Shown here: positions 36,344 to 50,286 of the stretch, piece by piece
Layout: every line of letters starts with the position of its first letter
Position numbering within the stretch: position 1 is the stretch's first letter
NCBI GenBank assembly: GCA_037389465.1
Contig: JAZARR010000260.1
Location: 219,501-283,500 of the forward strand
From: Baylisascaris procyonis
Taxonomy: Eukaryota > Nematoda > Chromadorea > Rhabditida > Ascarididae
Length of the DNA stretch: 64,000 nucleotides
Reading direction: 5' to 3'
Notes under the pieces: generated by a model
The model's input: only the letters and a program-made list of their open reading frames with translations
The model's database searches: none
Told to the model about the DNA's origin: nothing
Program-made: the position numbers and the translations under genes

Positions 36344-36348
36344 ATCCC
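36344..36348. repeat. Target-site duplication, left copy
   Basis: The pentamer ATCCC directly precedes the left LTR and is repeated at 44056-44060 directly after the right LTR. Five bases is a typical duplication size for LTR elements. Confidence 0.9.
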
Positions 36349-37004: not shown

Positions 37005-37026
37005 CTCAAACTTGGGTAATTAAACC
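37005..37026 (-). other. Exact 22-nt SL1 spliced-leader sequence in the 3' LTR
   Basis: The minus strand reads GGTTTAATTACCC directly followed by AAGTTTGAG, identical over all 22 positions to the nematode SL1 trans-spliced leader. It is in the sense direction of the element and is followed by GT. A chance 22-base match in one LTR is essentially excluded. The match is copied in the other LTR because both derive from one template. Confidence 0.95.
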
Positions 37027-37515: not shown

Positions 37516-40500
37516 TTAGGCTGGTGCCTCGTTATCGTCTATTTCGAGCGGGTACAACTGGCTTATGGGTCTGGTCCATTCATTTCCATTACCCAGTTTC
37601 ACTCTTGCTGTACGTATGGATCGACCTTCTCCCCCTCTTAATTCCACTATTCGACCTAATTTCCACACTGCTTTGGGGGTTCCTTCTTCTTCTATGATAA
37701 CCACCTCGTTTATTCGCGGCTCTCTAGTTACTGATCCTCTAACGGCTCGATGATTTCGTTGTGTTCGCTCTCGCAGCGACGTGAGATACTCTGACCGCCA
37801 GTAATTCCAGAAGCGATCGAGTGTGCTAAGTGTTGCTTTCCATCTCATTAACATTTTTTCTCTAGACATCACCTCCTTTGGAAGGTAGCTTGGATCTTCC
37901 TTTTCTCCCTCTTCGTTTACCGTGAAGATCATTTCAGCAGCTGGTATCAGAAAATCGATCGGCCGAATAATATCGACTGACGTTTCATGCACATAAGTGA
38001 GTGGTCTACTGTTGACTACTCCTTCAACTTCTACAATAAGTGTTCGAAACTCTTCTTCGCTTAATCGTTTTCGTCCCACTGCTTTACGAAGTGAAGTTTT
38101 GGTTAAACCTATCATTCTTTCATAAACTCCTCCTTGCCATGGAGCGAAAGGTGTTATGAAGTTCCATTTGATTTCCTCTGCTCTGCTGATTTGTCTTAGG
38201 ACTTCTGCGGCGAGCGTAAAATTGCTCCCGTTGTCGCTAAATACAAGTTTAGGTTTTCCTCGTCGACTCACATATCTTTGAAAGCAGTTGAGGAACGAAG
38301 ATGCTGACAAGTCATTTGCCACTTCCAAATGGACAGCGCGTGTCGTAAGACATGTAAACAATGCTACCCAACTTTTTTGAAATTTAATTTCATTGCCCAA
38401 AAGAGCTTTTAAGTTGAACGGTCCAAAATAGTCCAGTCCCACATTTTCGAAGGCTCGGGTTACAACTGTGCGGCATGATGGTAGATCTGGCATTCTTGGA
38501 AGCTTGAACGGATGTGTGAGCCATCTACGACATTTCATGCACTTTTTCTTTATGACCTTTTTTACCGTTTCTCTCCCTTTGGCTATCCAGTATTTTGACC
38601 GCAGTTGGTTTAACGTATGGGCTGGCCCCGAATGCATTAAAATTTCGTGTTGATGAGTAATAAGCATTTCCGTGATGGGATGTTTAGGTAGAAAAATCGG
38701 AAACTTGGTGTCTCGTGGGAGGTCTGAATAGGCAAGACGTCCTCCACATCTCCAGAGATTGTCGTCGCCTCGAAAAAGCTCCCAACGCACAATCTCCGCT
38801 TTCGTGATCATTTCTTCTTGAGCCTGTCTAATGAGATGTTTTTCCGCTTCTATTTGGTCCTCCACTCCTACTGCCTTTCTTTTCCGTTCCTTGAGGTTCT
38901 TTATGAATCTTATCACGGCAGCCGTGATGCCCTTCACTTTCCTCCAACTGTTATACTTGCTTGCATCGATTACACAGTGATTTATAGCACAATCGTTTTC
39001 TTCTTCTGTACCGACTTCGAGCGCGGTAACTGTTGTCGTAGGTTGTTTGCCTTGGTCTCTCTTCACTTTGTTCTTTTGAAAGGCGTCTTCGCTGATTACA
39101 CATTGTTGCGGATTTGAAAGCTCCCATTTCGGCCAATTCTCTACGGATTGTCTGAGCCATGGTGGGCCATGCCACCACAAGGAACTTTCTTTAAGCTTGT
39201 CAGGATCAATGCCCTTTGTCGCAATATCGCTCGGGTTTTGATCGGATGGGACGTAACTCCACCATTTCGCCGTATTACGCATTTGCTTTAAACGATTTTC
39301 GATGAACCTCGTATTGATCTCTTTATCTGAACGTATCCAGTGCAACACACATTTGCTATCGCTCCAGTAATGGGTCTCCACTTCCTCCATCGAGAGCTGT
39401 TTCTTTACGAACTCGAGTAATCGTACTCCGATGAAGGCTGCCAACAATTCGAGTCTTGGAACCGAAGCTCCCTTCACGGGGCACAGACGCGTTTTAGCCA
39501 TAACTAAGTTCGTCAATACTGCACCATTTACGATTTCACGATTGTATACTGCTGCGGCGTAAGCCTGCATCGATGCATCGACAAAAACGTGCAGTTGTCT
39601 CTCCTTTGCACAACGAAAGAATATTTGACGAGGGATGTCGTTTACTGTATTATTCCAACTTTTCTGTAATCTTTCCCACAGTAACTTCTCTTCTTCTTTC
39701 AATGAGTCATCCCATTTGTATTTCTTCTTCCATAATTCCTGAAGGAATACTTTTAATGGGACAAGCAACGGAGCCATTAATCCGAGAGGATCAAAGTGAG
39801 AGGCTACAAAGCTCAGTACTTGTCGCTTGGTTTGGGCGGCACCAATCTTGTCTTTTACACCTAGTATTATTTTATCCTCCTTTAACGACCATGTTATTCC
39901 TAACACTTTGGTCTCTTGTACTTCTTCTCGATCTTCCGGAGGAATAGCATCATACACTTCTTTGTTATTTGACGCGAACGATCTCAAGTTCATTCCGGCA
40001 CCTGCGAAAATTGCTTTTCCTTCACTACATAGTTGTATCGCTGTCTCTGAATTTTCTGCCTGCAACATGACATTGTCTACGTACAGATTTTTTAAGATTT
40101 CTTGAGCTGTAGTGGATCCAATTTCTGTCAAATGTTTCGTCAAAGTTGCAGCAAGTAAGAATGGGCTGGAAATCATTCCGAACGGTACTCTACAAAATCG
40201 ATACACTTCGATATTGTTTTCATCGACCGGACCCTTCTCTTTTACCCACAAAAACCGGGTCGTATCACGATCCTTCACATTCAGCTCCAGTTGCAGAAAC
40301 GCTTTTTCTACATCAGCAAGAACAACGTATTTAGAAGTTCGAAACCGTAACAGTATGCCTGCTAAGTCGTTTAACATCACTGGGCCTCTGAGCAACTGAC
40401 TGTTCAGGGAATTACCTTTCTCGTCTTTAGCACTTGCATCAAAAACCACCCGTAATTTAGTTGTCGATTTTTGAGGTGTTAGGACTGCTTGATGTGGTAT

Positions 40501-42876
40501 ATACGAAATGAGAGGTCCATCTGGGACTTTGGGCGCCTTCTCAATTATACCTAATTCTAGCTGTTGTCGGAAGGTACCATCGTATCTTTTGAACAATTCC
40601 TCGTCTCCCTTTAAGCGTTTCAACGTGGACCTTAGTCTGCCAATGCATAGGCCGAAGTTATAAGGAACTTTAGGCGTGGCAGATTTCCACGGCCAGTTCA
40701 CGACATATCGACCATCTTCCGATTTAGTTATTGTTGCTTTGAATTGTTCTAGTGCTGCGACATCCTCTTTTGAGTCTATTGGGTCGTCAATTCCAAGCGT
40801 TTCCAATCTCCAGAATTGGTCAATATCTGCTTCACTAGTAACTGCAGCAGATGTCATTACTAACGCCGTATCTGCAGATGAAAGGGCTCTTTGTGTATCT
40901 AGTTTTGCATAACCACTTCCTGCTAGCATATCTCCAACTTTCGATTTGACCAGGTGGAACCCGGATGGTAATTTCTGTGAACCTTCGATCAGGTCGAAGA
41001 AGTAGTCTGCACCAATTATTAGCTGCGGTTGTTCCCATTTTTCCGGAATACACAGCCGATGCCTTTGTTTTGCGTTTGGGATGAGAATTTCGTTGAATTC
41101 AACATTTACTCTTTGAAGCTCTTTGGTCAAAAAGGGCATTGTACTGACTCTGATCTGTTTTTTATTTCCGTTTTTCAGTTGTAACGTAATGTTTACCTGC
41201 TTTGTATCATAACATTTCGGTTGCTGAGCGCCGAATCCCGCTATGGATATTTGGCTTCTTTTTTCAGTAGTCAGCTTCAGTTGATCACAAAGTTCTTCTG
41301 TTATGAATGATCCTTGACAACCCGCGTCAAAGAACGCAAAAATAGTTTTCCCCATTTCCGGTTTCTCCGGATTGTACACGTTCACCTCCTTACAAAGAAG
41401 CAAAACGGTCTTCTTTTCCCTTCGCTTTTGGGTGACCGCCGCTGTCAACGCCGATTCGTCAGGTGATCGGTTTACTTCCTTTTCGAAAGTGACTTTTTGT
41501 TTCCCTCTATTGTCTTCTGGTTCCTTCGGTTTACTTCCTTTCTCGGAACCACTTTTATTCTCCCTCTTTGGGCAGAGCGCCGAGTTGTGTTCCTCTCTGC
41601 AATAGAAACACATTCCTCTCCTTGCGCAATCCTTTGCGCTATGTCCCTCTACGAGACACCTGAAGCAAAGCCTTTTCTCTCTTATCCGACCACTGCGCTC
41701 TTTCACGGTTGCGTACTCATGGCAATCACTATTCCAGTGAGGGCCCCCGCAAAAGGCATAACTTCGTTTTTTACTTTTCGGCGCTTGATTTTCTCTCCTC
41801 TCCCGGTAGTTGCTTACTGTCGAAGAAAATGCAGACGTTTCCTTTGAGTCATACTTTATCGGCTTTCTGTCCTCATGACGATCTCTTCTCTGTGCCGTCA
41901 TGCTACTGGTCACGCGCATTATCGTTTCTTTTCGAGCAATCAATTTGTCGACATGCTCACGAAGTTTATCGACATTCCAAGACGGGTCTTCACTCTTTTT
42001 TTCATAAACTTCGAACAAGATCCACCTCGGCAATTTCTCCTCTACCATCAGCTCGATTATCGGATGATTCGTATCCTCATTCATCACATTTAGCTGTCTC
42101 AGAATTCTTTCGACCTCGTCTAGAACGACCCTAGGATTTCTAGGATCCGCCTGAGGCAACCTCCTCAATTCGTCATGGAGGCATTTTTTGATGAGGACTT
42201 CATTTCCATAACGCCTTTTCAAAACGTCCACCACTACTCTGTAATTGGAGGCCGTAATTGCGTATCCAGCTACTGTTGCATAAGCCGCACCTTTCAGACT
42301 ACTGAGTAAATAGTTGAGTTTATTGACGTCGGGTATTGGCTGTTGATCTACTGCTGCCTCAAATGAAGACCAAAATTCAGGCCATTTGCGTATATCTCCC
42401 GAAAAAGTAGCTAGCTCCAATTTTGGAAGTTTAATTCTCGGTGCCGATCTTGGCAGTTCAGTTACCTCCTGTGCTTCAGCCTTATTTTTATCCTGTAATC
42501 CGTGGAGTAGTCTTACTGCTTTTTGTTTTCGGCTTTCGACTAGCTCAAGAGTTTCTCGAGCTTTCTCCATAACTTGGAGCACTCCATTCGGATCGTCTAC
42601 CATTTGTCGATACATGCGATCTTCCTCTTTTGCTTCATCTCCTCTTAAACTGATTCTCAAAGAGAGCCATTGTTCGTGATATTTTTCTAACACACCGATA
42701 GCGGCATTTAGCTTACGCATGTAGCTGTCGAACTCTTCAACTTGATCTTCGAGAGAAGCAATTTGTTTAGCTGGGGTGTCGTCAATTTTTGGGACTTCTA
42801 ACCCCGGGATTTCCTTCAGATACCCTATCAACCTACCCTTAGTGGGTCCCATAGCCTGCCGATATACTCCCGACAT
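37516..42876 (-). CDS. Pao/BEL Gag-Pol polyprotein
   Basis: A single 1786-codon frame. A Gag-like region (about 145-320) carries the LPKLELATFSGD signature of DUF1759. Three cysteine clusters follow (about 376-435): CGGPHWNSDC, then CFRCLVEGHSAKDC (a CCHC zinc knuckle), then CFYCREEHNSALC. The aspartic protease has its active site at FFDAGCQGSF (about 515). The reverse transcriptase (about 780-950) has LADVEKAF at about 853 and YVDN at about 932, where YVDD is usual. RNase H has FVDAS (D1100), RLELLA (E1143), WSDSK (D1173) and NPSDIATKG (D1217). The integrase has an HHCC-type zinc site (about 1408-1449) and catalytic D1482, D1548 and E1586. A DUF5641-like C-terminus follows. The first ATG lies 15 bases after the primer-binding site and no frameshift is needed. 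The enzyme copies element RNA into DNA and inserts it. Confidence 0.96.
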   Translation of the reverse strand: MSGVYRQAMGPTKGRLIGYLKEIPGLEVPKIDDTPAKQIASLEDQVEEFDSYMRKLNAAIGVLEKYHEQWLSLRISLRGDEAKEEDRMYRQMVDDPNGVLQVMEKARETLELVESRKQKAVRLLHGLQDKNKAEAQEVTELPRSAPRIKLPKLELATFSGDIRKWPEFWSSFEAAVDQQPIPDVNKLNYLLSSLKGAAYATVAGYAITASNYRVVVDVLKRRYGNEVLIKKCLHDELRRLPQADPRNPRVVLDEVERILRQLNVMNEDTNHPIIELMVEEKLPRWILFEVYEKKSEDPSWNVDKLREHVDKLIARKETIMRVTSSMTAQRRDRHEDRKPIKYDSKETSAFSSTVSNYRERRENQAPKSKKRSYAFCGGPHWNSDCHEYATVKERSGRIREKRLCFRCLVEGHSAKDCARRGMCFYCREEHNSALCPKRENKSGSEKGSKPKEPEDNRGKQKVTFEKEVNRSPDESALTAAVTQKRREKKTVLLLCKEVNVYNPEKPEMGKTIFAFFDAGCQGSFITEELCDQLKLTTEKRSQISIAGFGAQQPKCYDTKQVNITLQLKNGNKKQIRVSTMPFLTKELQRVNVEFNEILIPNAKQRHRLCIPEKWEQPQLIIGADYFFDLIEGSQKLPSGFHLVKSKVGDMLAGSGYAKLDTQRALSSADTALVMTSAAVTSEADIDQFWRLETLGIDDPIDSKEDVAALEQFKATITKSEDGRYVVNWPWKSATPKVPYNFGLCIGRLRSTLKRLKGDEELFKRYDGTFRQQLELGIIEKAPKVPDGPLISYIPHQAVLTPQKSTTKLRVVFDASAKDEKGNSLNSQLLRGPVMLNDLAGILLRFRTSKYVVLADVEKAFLQLELNVKDRDTTRFLWVKEKGPVDENNIEVYRFCRVPFGMISSPFLLAATLTKHLTEIGSTTAQEILKNLYVDNVMLQAENSETAIQLCSEGKAIFAGAGMNLRSFASNNKEVYDAIPPEDREEVQETKVLGITWSLKEDKIILGVKDKIGAAQTKRQVLSFVASHFDPLGLMAPLLVPLKVFLQELWKKKYKWDDSLKEEEKLLWERLQKSWNNTVNDIPRQIFFRCAKERQLHVFVDASMQAYAAAVYNREIVNGAVLTNLVMAKTRLCPVKGASVPRLELLAAFIGVRLLEFVKKQLSMEEVETHYWSDSKCVLHWIRSDKEINTRFIENRLKQMRNTAKWWSYVPSDQNPSDIATKGIDPDKLKESSLWWHGPPWLRQSVENWPKWELSNPQQCVISEDAFQKNKVKRDQGKQPTTTVTALEVGTEEENDCAINHCVIDASKYNSWRKVKGITAAVIRFIKNLKERKRKAVGVEDQIEAEKHLIRQAQEEMITKAEIVRWELFRGDDNLWRCGGRLAYSDLPRDTKFPIFLPKHPITEMLITHQHEILMHSGPAHTLNQLRSKYWIAKGRETVKKVIKKKCMKCRRWLTHPFKLPRMPDLPSCRTVVTRAFENVGLDYFGPFNLKALLGNEIKFQKSWVALFTCLTTRAVHLEVANDLSASSFLNCFQRYVSRRGKPKLVFSDNGSNFTLAAEVLRQISRAEEIKWNFITPFAPWQGGVYERMIGLTKTSLRKAVGRKRLSEEEFRTLIVEVEGVVNSRPLTYVHETSVDIIRPIDFLIPAAEMIFTVNEEGEKEDPSYLPKEVMSREKMLMRWKATLSTLDRFWNYWRSEYLTSLRERTQRNHRAVRGSVTREPRINEVVIIEEEGTPKAVWKLGRIVELRGGEGRSIRTARVKLGNGNEWTRPISQLYPLEIDDNEAPA

Positions 42877-42890
42877 TGTAACTGCTTAAC

Positions 42891-42908
42891 TCCCGGCTCG
42901 TGGCACCA
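42891..42908 (-). promoter_or_regulatory. Primer-binding site of the Pao/BEL element
   Basis: On the sense strand TGGTGCCACGAGCCGGGA lies 8 bases inside the 5' LTR. It begins with TGG, complementary to the CCA end of a tRNA, and implies a primer tRNA whose acceptor stem begins GCCACGA. I did not assign the tRNA isotype. Confidence 0.8.
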
Positions 42909-42916
42909 AATTTTTC

Positions 42917-44055
42917 TGTCGTGAACAAAACGAAGCTGATGGTCGTATGTAGACGACAGAAAAAGATAAAGAAGAGATCGACGGTTTATTAGGATAGAGA
43001 TCAACAAAGTTAAGGTCACAATGCACGTGAAGTAAAACCAACAAGCTGCGCAGGCCTGTCAAAAAAATTGGCAATATAAAAGCAATAAAGAAAACAACGA
43101 CAATCGAAGGCCAAAGCTTTGACTTGGGGCAGGTTGGGCGAATTGAGCGATATAATACCGAATGAGCGGGACACACGTTTAGAGTATGGCACTTATTGTC
43201 AACTGTCTCACGGCCTGATACAATGAAGCGCAATATAAGCACAAGGGAAACGAAGTGTCGGGCGATCGCTTTCGTGCCGACACCTGGTTATCAATGTATC
43301 GCCGTCTAACTCGTGCGACTGATTCTATTCGCCGCAATTTCTTTTCTCCCGCGCTGGGATTGACTCTTCGGGTTTGTGGCTACTCGACAACTTGAACAGT
43401 GATGAACTATAATTGATTTCAACAAAGAAACCGGCCTGTTTTGATGAGGGCTCGTCCGCTTGCGCCCTTTTTCTTCTTTTTGTGCTTGGCTATACCAACC
43501 TCCTGGTTGGTCCGTCCCAAGTTTGTTCACACGGTTCGGGGGACACCTTTTTGCGTGCGAATCGCCCGACACCTCAAACTTGGGTAATTAAACCTTCTGA
43601 TGCTTCACAAACAACGTAAAAACGCGACATACCCGAAAAACGAATACAAAACCATCATAAAACATGATCTGAGTCAAATATGGTGATTCTAGTGATGAGC
43701 TAACGAAAAGGTACAATCCAATGACGAGGAGAGTGAAAAAAAACGTCACAAACTACTGACGAGATCGTGGAACTTTGAGGCAATCCACAAGTAACCATGA
43801 AAATAAAGTTTAAATTCAGAAAAAACAATGAAGAAGAAAGTGCTGACAAATGAAGTAAAGGCGCTACACTTACACGCTTACACACGACGCATTAGAAGAC
43901 ACGCGCTTACACACGACCGCAACGCCGCATTAGAGAACGATATAGTCGCTACAGTCAGAGATCAACTTAGATCGTTCTTTGAGTTATTACGTTGATACAC
44001 AGTTTGATTTACTGTGTGCCGCAGCCCGCTAACTCATTCGCGAATCTTCGCGACA
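42917..44055 (-). repeat. 5' LTR of the Pao/BEL element
   Basis: 1139 bases, matching 36349-37489. In the sense direction it runs from 44055 to 42917: about 461 bases precede the SL1 copy and about 656 follow it. If transcription began at or near SL1, the first part would be U3 and most of the rest R. LTR-internal frames, including an 88-codon frame at 43306-43572 that begins just after SL1 and a 118-codon frame at 42886-43242 with a hydrophobic stretch, are seen in both LTRs. That is expected from the copying mechanism and is no evidence of coding. Confidence 0.95.
43573..43594 (-). other. Exact 22-nt SL1 spliced-leader sequence in the 5' LTR
   Basis: Same match as at 37005-37026, in the LTR that would drive transcription. 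Ten bases of it (CCCAAGTTTG) are perfectly complementary to CAAACTTGGG located about 50 bases downstream. Next comes a second hairpin (ACCAACC, AGGA loop, GGTTGGT). The leader would therefore sit in a structured RNA, which is also the case in real SL RNAs, although the downstream sequence is not that of the C. elegans SL1 RNA. Confidence 0.95.
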
Positions 44056-44060
44056 ATCCC
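44056..44060. repeat. Target-site duplication, right copy
   Basis: ATCCC, matching 36344-36348. Confidence 0.9.
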
Positions 44061-49140: not shown

Positions 49141-49275
49141 GAAATTATACAGAAAATGAAACGGAAGTCACTTTTTGACGTTAAACGCTTTTTTTAATAT
49201 TTAGAACGTTGGTTGAATTTTCGTTTTGTGTAGCAATTAATCGACTCACATCATTCCTGCATTTAATTACTTATT

Positions 49276-49287
49276 ATTTACCGTATT
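49276..49287. repeat. Target-site duplication of the LINE, left copy
   Basis: The 12-mer ATTTACCGTATT occurs here and again at 50323-50334, exactly bracketing the LINE-derived sequence. Confidence 0.85.
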
Positions 49288-50286
49288 TACCTCAAACGGT
49301 TAGAAGCCAGAACAAAAGTGCACACTGCAGTCATCCGGGAACTACTATATGCTGATGACTGCGCGTTAATGGCACATTCCTGCGCGGGTCTACAAGATAT
49401 CATGAATCGATTTGCCACGGCAGCCAACCGCTTTGGCTTGAAGGTCAGCCTGAAGAAAACCGAAGTTATGTACCGAGAATGCCCAGATCGTCAGCAGCCC
49501 ACATCACATGCCGTAACAGTTGACGGATCCAGTCTTCGGGTTGTCGATAACTTTACATACCTAGGCAGCACACTTACAAGCTCAGCATATAATGACACAG
49601 AAACCTCCAGAAGATTGGCGAAAGCGAGTGCCGCATTTGGCAAATTGTACAAACGTCTCTGGAGCAGACATGAAGTGAAACTGAGTGCTAAGGTTGCGGT
49701 ATACCGTGCAGTCGTGCTAACAACGCTTCTCTACGGTTCCGAAACCTGGACGCTATACCGAAAAGACATCAAGAGGCTGGATCAGTTTCATATGCGATGT
49801 TTACGCAAAATTGCAAACATCAGCTGGTAAGACAAAATAAGGAACACTGAAGTGCTGAAAAGGTGCAAGATAACTGGTATCGAAGCATACATCATCTCAT
49901 CCCAATTACGTTGGGTTGGGCATGTCACCAGAATGCCGGACAACCGCATCCCCAAGCAACTACTTTACGGACAACTCGCCTCTGGGGAACGGAAACGAGG
50001 GCGTCCGCTGCTTCGATACAAGGATAGAGTCAAGGCAACGCTGAAAGCGTGTCAAATGGAGCTGAAGGATGACATAGTACATGACAGACAGCTGTGGAGG
50101 AGAGCATGCCGCGAGGGGACTACACGATTTGAAAGATGTCGAGTTCAAGCACTGGAAGAGAAAAGATCGCGACGACTATTGAGCACAAGTGGGCCGGATC
50201 AAGGAGTACGGTTTATCTGCGATAGGTGCAACAGGACGTGCTTATGTCGAATTGGACTCGTCTCACACATGCGCGTTCACCGGTGA
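49288..50286 (+). pseudogene. LINE reverse transcriptase, C-terminal part, one in-frame stop
   Basis: The frame is open from the truncation point and contains RELLYADDCALMAHS, the catalytic YADD box of reverse transcriptase. Conserved blocks follow: LKVSLKKTEVMY, NFTYLGSTLT, KLYKRLW, LLYGSETWTLY, LDQFHMRCLRKIANISW. A single in-frame TAA lies at 49828-49830. The same frame then continues with RWVGHVTRMPDNRIPKQLLYG, RGRPLLRYKDR and a C-terminal cysteine/histidine cluster (CDRCNRTCLC then HMRVH) that looks like a C2H2-type zinc finger, ending at 50284-50286. These blocks are typical of widespread invertebrate endonuclease/reverse-transcriptase LINE proteins. The absent N-terminus and the stop make this copy non-functional. 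Confidence 0.9.

Follow-up and report, generated by a model that had tools for sequence, protein, structure and literature searches.

Why does the long terminal repeat (LTR) of a mobile element contain the spliced leader SL1 of its nematode host? The question arises from a Pao/BEL element in a stretch of 64,000 nucleotides of the Baylisascaris procyonis genome, here called the window. A first-pass annotation had reported an exact SL1 in sense orientation in both LTRs of this element, about 461 bases into the 5′ LTR and followed by GT. Three readings were offered: that trans-spliced genomic RNA of the element had been captured by reverse transcription, that transcription starts at SL1, or that the LTR contains a captured SL RNA gene. 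The element itself consists of the following parts, in window coordinates:

44056..44060, minus strand: target-site duplication GGGAT, 5′ side
42917..44055, minus strand: 5′ LTR of the Pao/BEL element, 1139 bp, with TGTCGCG...ACGACA ends
42891..42908, minus strand: candidate primer binding site TGGTGCCACGAGCCGGGA
37516..42876, minus strand: gag-pol open reading frame (ORF), single and intact, 1786 aa
36349..37489, minus strand: 3′ LTR of the Pao/BEL element, 1141 bp, with TGTCGCG...ACGACA ends
36344..36348, minus strand: target-site duplication GGGAT, 3′ side

This is a young and complete Pao/BEL element (Belpaoviridae). Both LTRs are 99.2% identical (7 mismatches and 2 gaps in 1146 aligned columns), have TG...CA ends and are accompanied by a target duplication and a primer binding site, whose 18 bases are the same as those after the group C LTR introduced below. 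The gag-pol domains are of the Pao type, with DUF1759, DUF1758, RVT_1, Peptidase_A17, Integrase_H2C2 and DUF5641 above the Pfam cut-off and an rve core of 26.7 bits, below the cut-off of 32.6. The element has no env gene, its ORF stopping 26 nt short of the 3′ LTR, and it therefore falls outside the env-bearing Tas subfamily. Among the best 120 of 1233 matches to the reverse transcriptase piece the top ones are unnamed proteins with up to 54% identity; named nematode matches (Plectus, Acanthocheilonema, Loa, Ascaris, Anisakis) lie at 44-48%, and some molluscs reach up to 46%. Elsewhere in the window two adjoining open stretches on the plus strand (49267-49830 and 49831-50286) resemble, by eye, the end of a non-LTR reverse transcriptase with YADD.

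The leader is found at two sites:

43573..43594, minus strand: SL1 22-mer GGTTTAATTACCCAAGTTTGAG, exact, bases 462-483 of the 5′ LTR
37005..37026, minus strand: SL1 22-mer, exact, bases 462-483 of the 3′ LTR

Scanning the window for SL1 with up to three mismatches returned just these two sites, both exact, and 100 shuffles returned none. The reported presence, position and orientation of the leader were borne out, as 461 LTR bases come before SL1, and SL1 and the ORF are both on the minus strand. The GT after SL1 holds for the window LTRs but not for other SL1-bearing LTRs, where GC (group B copies L053 and L054) or GC, GA and TC (group C copies) were observed. About 300 nt further along the same LTR, at window 43256-43267 on the minus strand, ATCGCCCGACAC perfectly complements the 12 bases directly after SL1, GTGTCGGGCGAT (by eye).

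Two malic enzyme exons of this genome agree with PDB 1llq, the Ascaris suum enzyme, in 55 of 58 and 57 of 59 residues as counted in the alignments, and make an ascarid host probable. In the whole genome (272.8 Mb in 293 contigs) SL1 has 981 exact copies. In 263 of them it is followed by GTAATTC, the sequence after SL1 in SL RNA genes, and at 131 places by GTGTCGGGCGA, the sequence of group A, to which the window LTR belongs. SL1 gave no matches in IMG/VR and none in prokaryote genome contigs. A search with the whole LTR yielded 230 candidate places, 40 of which were scored and 30 fetched; 27 of these have an exact SL1 and three have one substitution. Four further groups were found by reading around the listed SL1 places:

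Group B: AATATAA or AATACAA before SL1, GYCCGACGGG after it
Group C: AATAAA before SL1, GCGTGG and variants after it
Group D: CAATAAA before SL1, GTTGGC after it
Group E: an older relic, L065, with exact SL1

As SL1 itself was searched, the possession of SL1 by the groups other than A is due to the choice of query. The choice of query does not account for the occurrence of SL1 at all in separate Pao groups, in sense orientation and in the middle of the LTR; the mid-LTR position was seen in A, B and C, the groups with LTR ends found. AATAAA stands directly before SL1 at 56 places (C/D type), and not so in A and B. Compared to the window ORF by tblastn with 250-aa pieces, groups B and C show 31-32% identity in the N-terminal (gag) part and 33-43% in the C-terminal (integrase) part, and judged by these matches they are Pao relatives. 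For groups D and E the link to C comes from LTR sequence downstream of SL1, not from proteins. SL1 in LTRs is real and common in this genome.

Some SL1-bearing LTRs follow one another on one strand with a regular spacing of 6.57 or 7.1-7.2 kb (C78:125-165 kb, C157:5.30-5.32 Mb, C22:40-62 kb, C66:47-62 kb), as if elements shared LTRs head to tail, be it by recombination arrays or by assembly. A MITE-like repeat with inverted arms (AGTTTTTTGGYTATGACCATG...) adjoins or contains exact SL1 at L001, L004, L055, L056, L062 (+ strand), L068, L085 and L086. At most of these places SL1 is followed by a common stretch (like GTCGGTGTGCTATGATTATGGCTCAAAGAGCC), and the left parts end at different points; this is a second association of SL1 with a repeat, and an unexplained one. 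Isolated exact copies of SL1 lie a few bases before an ATG at L052 (SL1 at 1210, minus strand) and L078 (SL1 at 1240, plus strand). They were considered as retrocopies of trans-spliced host mRNA, which the reading frames, broken early, do not support.

Whether related LTRs keep the 22-mer had been proposed as a check, and the answer is divided. Groups B, C, D and E keep it, but of the 44 Pao pol ends checked, an exact SL1 follows DUF5641 within 3 kb in 19 and is lacking there in 25. These 44 are the ones among 150 scored DUF5641 hits that lie on C1-C88, the contigs for which all SL1 copies are listed. Five of the 25 were read, two of them, env-like loci, in part. A one-mismatch SL1 is present at three of the 25, which by sequence belong to groups A and C, and in the parts read of the two env-like loci the closest likeness to SL1 has 11-12 mismatches. 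SL1 is a feature of some Pao families, not of all. L091, L093 and L094 represent Pao families with long open stretches past DUF5641 that look env-like by eye, and SL1 is absent in the parts read; in one of the three, the sequence with which the LTR of the window element starts, TGTCGCGAA, follows further downstream.

The groups that do carry SL1 have little else in common around it. In the 150 nt downstream of SL1, A and B resemble each other (z 4.8-18.8), as do C, C2, D and E (z 6.8-9.0), whereas A/B against C/D/E stay at z 2.5 or below. In the 150 nt upstream no pair between groups exceeds z 2.9. Local alignments over about 1460 nt leave the window LTR with 26 nt in common with D and 28 nt with E, which is SL1 plus 2-4 bases on either side; A3, a more distant A copy, aligns with D from -36 to +23. 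That SL1 is kept between distantly related families with barely alignable LTRs suggests use and not accident, and we regard SL1 in the LTRs as probably functional. Within group A it is no better kept than its surroundings, 182-227 out of 1123 windows being as good or better, which leaves conservation within the group unsupported as a sign of selection. There SL1 decays like its neighbourhood, so the constraint is visible between groups only.

Mutated copies of the leader bear on the question whether it is encoded or added. With an open pattern for group A, in which the flanks were fixed and the 22 bases left free, 89 places were found, comprising 86 LTRs and three unrelated places. SL1 is exact in 72 of the 86 LTRs and has one mismatch in 14. 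Twelve of these 14 lie in paired LTRs or in an array with a spacing of about 6.5 kb (loci C134, C157, C185, C199 and C270), and the C185 and C199 loci have the identical SL1 change. In group C an SL1 ending in GAC, first seen in one LTR of each element and then searched, occurs with those flanks at exactly four places, which are both LTRs of two separate elements. The open pattern for group C gave 67 places that by reading were counted as 28 exact, 13 SL1-like (1-5 mismatches) and 26 unrelated, and the reversed control pattern gave 26 places as well. In retroviral replication the R region of both new LTRs comes from the 5′ end of the RNA template. A leader supplied by the host would therefore have reset mismatches of the kind found here in both LTRs. 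As far as the LTR pairs allow to judge, the elements with a mismatched SL1, at least, copied their own SL1, and their leader is element-encoded and not resupplied by the host in each cycle.

SL1 is thus encoded in both LTRs, inherited when mutated and kept between groups that can hardly be aligned. The explanation we favour, with due caution, is that the element encodes an SL1 at the beginning of R which fixes the 5′ terminus of its RNA by direct transcription, so that the RNA mimics a trans-spliced host mRNA. SL1 would then be an encoded copy of the host leader with which the R region of the LTR opens, transcription would start at the first G of SL1, SL1 would also act as an initiator, and the encoded leader would help the translation of the element RNA. 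In the SL RNA genes of Ascaris, SL1 forms part of the promoter. The broader form of this explanation is more tentative: several Pao/BEL families may have made the host leader their own promoter-initiator and R, their RNA passing as trans-spliced and receiving the host's SL-dependent translation with no trans-splicing taking place.

Transcription starting at SL1 would be the best fit among the three readings of the first-pass annotation, but a TATA box about 420 nt upstream in C and D argues against it. Homology between D and E, C3 and E, and A and B starts 2-3 nt before SL1 and runs on downstream, a break that is expected if SL1 starts R; between C and D and between C and E it starts 14-27 nt before SL1, at -25 for C-D and -14 for C-E, so that the break there is not exactly at SL1. 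The likeness of L065 (group E) to D and C3 begins at SL1. This relic was considered as a fossil of the RNA 5′ end but not taken as proof, since D shows that what precedes SL1 can change until it no longer aligns.

Reverse transcription of capped RNA is known to leave an additional G at the cap site. Directly before SL1 an extra G is present at seven places in the genome: in group A on C219 (both LTRs) and C270, in group B on C69 and C79, and twice on C279. It is a clear insertion in the two group A loci and in group B; the C279 pair is ambiguous, its upstream bases being different. As a control, one +1 insertion was found among 150 two-base runs in 30 group A LTRs, a comparison in which the denominators differ (genome against 30 LTRs) and which was prompted by two of the seven cases, themselves few in number.

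Conserved sequence upstream of SL1 had been suggested as a further check. It concerns the following stretch:

43595..43639, minus strand: 45 nt upstream of SL1 (GTCGCGTTTT..TTGTTT), resembling C and C2 when SL1 is part of the local alignment

If SL1 is excluded from the scoring, the window copy stays below z 2 against B, C and D. The 45 nt are alike in A3-C2, B-C, B-C2 and C-D, with 0, 2, 1 and 3 of 300 dinucleotide shuffles as good at 55 pairs per window, but the unrelated pair of an SL RNA gene and L052 also reached 0 of 300 in the same upstream window, and the control pairs C-MITE, B-SL RNA gene and B-L052 reached 1-5 of 300 in other windows. With control pairs as good as these, the likeness in this stretch counts as weak.

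In C (L066) and D (L075) TATATAAAC occurs at -420 and -423, followed by TTCGG and ACTG. Read as a TATA box, it would place the start about 390 nt before SL1. Another C copy has a TATA match at -463, and in four more copies of C or E the region contains none. If transcription started about 390 nt upstream, R would end at SL1 and the AATAAA preceding it. If it started at SL1, the AATAAA abutting SL1 in C and D would give a short-R layout like that of RSV, where the poly(A) signal lies in U3 and the cap site follows at once. AATAAA does not abut SL1 in A. The window LTR contains neither TATAAA nor TATATA, and has one AATAAA:

42985..42990, minus strand: AATAAA, possible poly(A) signal, the sole one in the 5′ LTR

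It is located about 605 nt after the start of SL1, and the end of R would therefore differ between the groups.

The AATAAA directly before SL1 in C and D, together with the TATA box far upstream, would also suit an internal R/U5 signal, in which SL1, located at the poly(A) site, forms a duplex with a complement further downstream, so that its identity with the leader reflects origin and not function. Such a complement exists in the window LTR:

43516..43525, minus strand: CAAACTTGGG, 10 nt that perfectly complement bases 11-20 of SL1, located 48 nt after it

The tested copies of A and B have a perfect SL1 complement of 9-11 nt located 35-49 nt downstream, for which 0-4 of 2000 single-base shuffles of stretches of 60-130 nt were as good; for the 9-nt complement of L057 it was 10 of 2000 at 130 nt. 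In L066 (C) and L065 (E) the complement is split into CCTCAA and, near +100, CTTGGGTAA or TTGGGTAA. A complement of 9-10 nt lies near +155 in some C copies, and others have nothing above 8 nt. In predicted folds the complement closes a domain with SL1 in A and B, and the pairing may matter for packaging, translation or 3′ processing. As the full explanation we consider such a signal unlikely, though it is the strongest of the alternatives. Pairing alone would allow both arms to drift together, yet SL1 is exact; D has no complement above 5 nt, D and several C copies lack a long one within 130 nt, and A and B have no AATAAA before SL1.

Trans-splicing, the first of the readings offered, comes next and is doubtful as the main source of the leader. 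Here the host SL1 would be joined to the element RNA and reverse-transcribed, the SL1 of the LTR serving as a minimal R for first-strand transfer. In C and D the arrangement of a TATA box at -420, AATAAA at -6 and then SL1 at the boundary is what one would expect if SL1 had taken the place of an outron and remained the sole end in common. In C. elegans, SL1 is added in trans to a spliced mRNA of Cer1 (PMC3315495), and trans-splicing is the origin inferred for the PAO elements of Brugia malayi (PMC7181701). Against this, the mutated SL1 is found in LTR pairs and in separate insertions, where a complete strong-stop copy would have restored the host SL1. The GAC variant lacks the AG required by a splice acceptor, and the 8-kb RNA of Cer1 is not trans-spliced at the SL1 site (PMC3315495). 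Trans-splicing is weakened by the inherited mismatches and might have acted as a second route or as the origin of the LTR leader.

That SL1 is a relic, captured once by an old Pao ancestor and carried along since then with no function, appears improbable to us. It would agree with the decay of SL1 at its neighbours' pace within group A and with the isolated SL1 copies elsewhere in the genome, but 22 out of 22 bases are kept between groups whose flanks hardly align. It is hardly credible that the LTR holds a captured SL RNA gene as a donor of leaders to mRNAs of the host or the element: group A has GAG and then GT, and a hairpin can form according to the fold prediction, but under the Rfam SL1 model the window LTR reaches 21.6 bits compared to 64.7-75.5 bits for the 50 SL RNA places scored, GT is not conserved, and the flanks of the LTR SL1 neither align with an SL RNA gene nor share any upstream sequence with it. 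An SL RNA gene has an SL1 exon and a conserved RNA body with an Sm site, and no such body follows SL1 in the window LTR. Rfam gave no match at the gathering score, which is a weak test because 49 of the 50 scored SL RNA places also miss it. 5S rRNA genes adjoin the SL RNA loci in all three loci scanned with Rfam, and on C89 and C121 (L040, L044, L045) SL RNA genes and 5S rRNA form tandem arrays with repeat lengths of about 875 and 1113 bases.

The association of SL1 and PAO as such is not new, as it is known from the filarial worm Brugia malayi. The passages on these elements in Foster et al. 2020 (PMC7181701) report 120 SL1 outside the SL gene arrays, 60 of which are within 1 kb of PAO elements, occasionally with one SL1 on each side in the same orientation; the authors conclude that expressed PAO RNAs received leaders and were then integrated. 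The likeness to our observation is SL1 near Pao elements. The difference is that in Brugia the leader is explained by flanking integration after trans-splicing, whereas here it lies inside the LTR, in several groups, and is inherited when mutated. The portions of the literature searched contain no statement of SL1 at a fixed LTR site or as inherited; the Tas papers (Felder 1994; Aeby 1986), the likeliest source of one, lie outside this search. The LTR-internal, inherited SL1 of multiple families appears to be a new form of a known association. Should the RNA indeed begin with an encoded SL1, this would be molecular mimicry of trans-splicing by a mobile element and a use of the leader apart from trans-splicing, and it could explain the pairing of SL1 and Pao in worms as distant as filariae and an ascarid. 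The published reading, in which the leader is added in trans and then integrated, becomes a testable question of encoded or added.

Three further systems can be compared. Tas (Ascaris lumbricoides Tas virus, Belpaoviridae) is likewise a Pao/BEL element of an ascarid, but is described as env-bearing, and the window element has no env (PMC8742986, PMC554778). Cer1 of C. elegans is an LTR retrotransposon with an mRNA that carries SL1; it belongs to Gypsy/Ty3, the leader is received in trans on the 2.4-kb mRNA and not on the 8-kb RNA, and the relevant passages of the paper make no mention of an LTR-encoded SL1 (PMC3315495). The DinoSL relics of dinoflagellate retrogenes are likewise a leader copied to DNA through RNA, and their authors consider that a box in the leader may promote transcription; these relics head host retrocopies, not the LTRs of a mobile element (PMC12014239).
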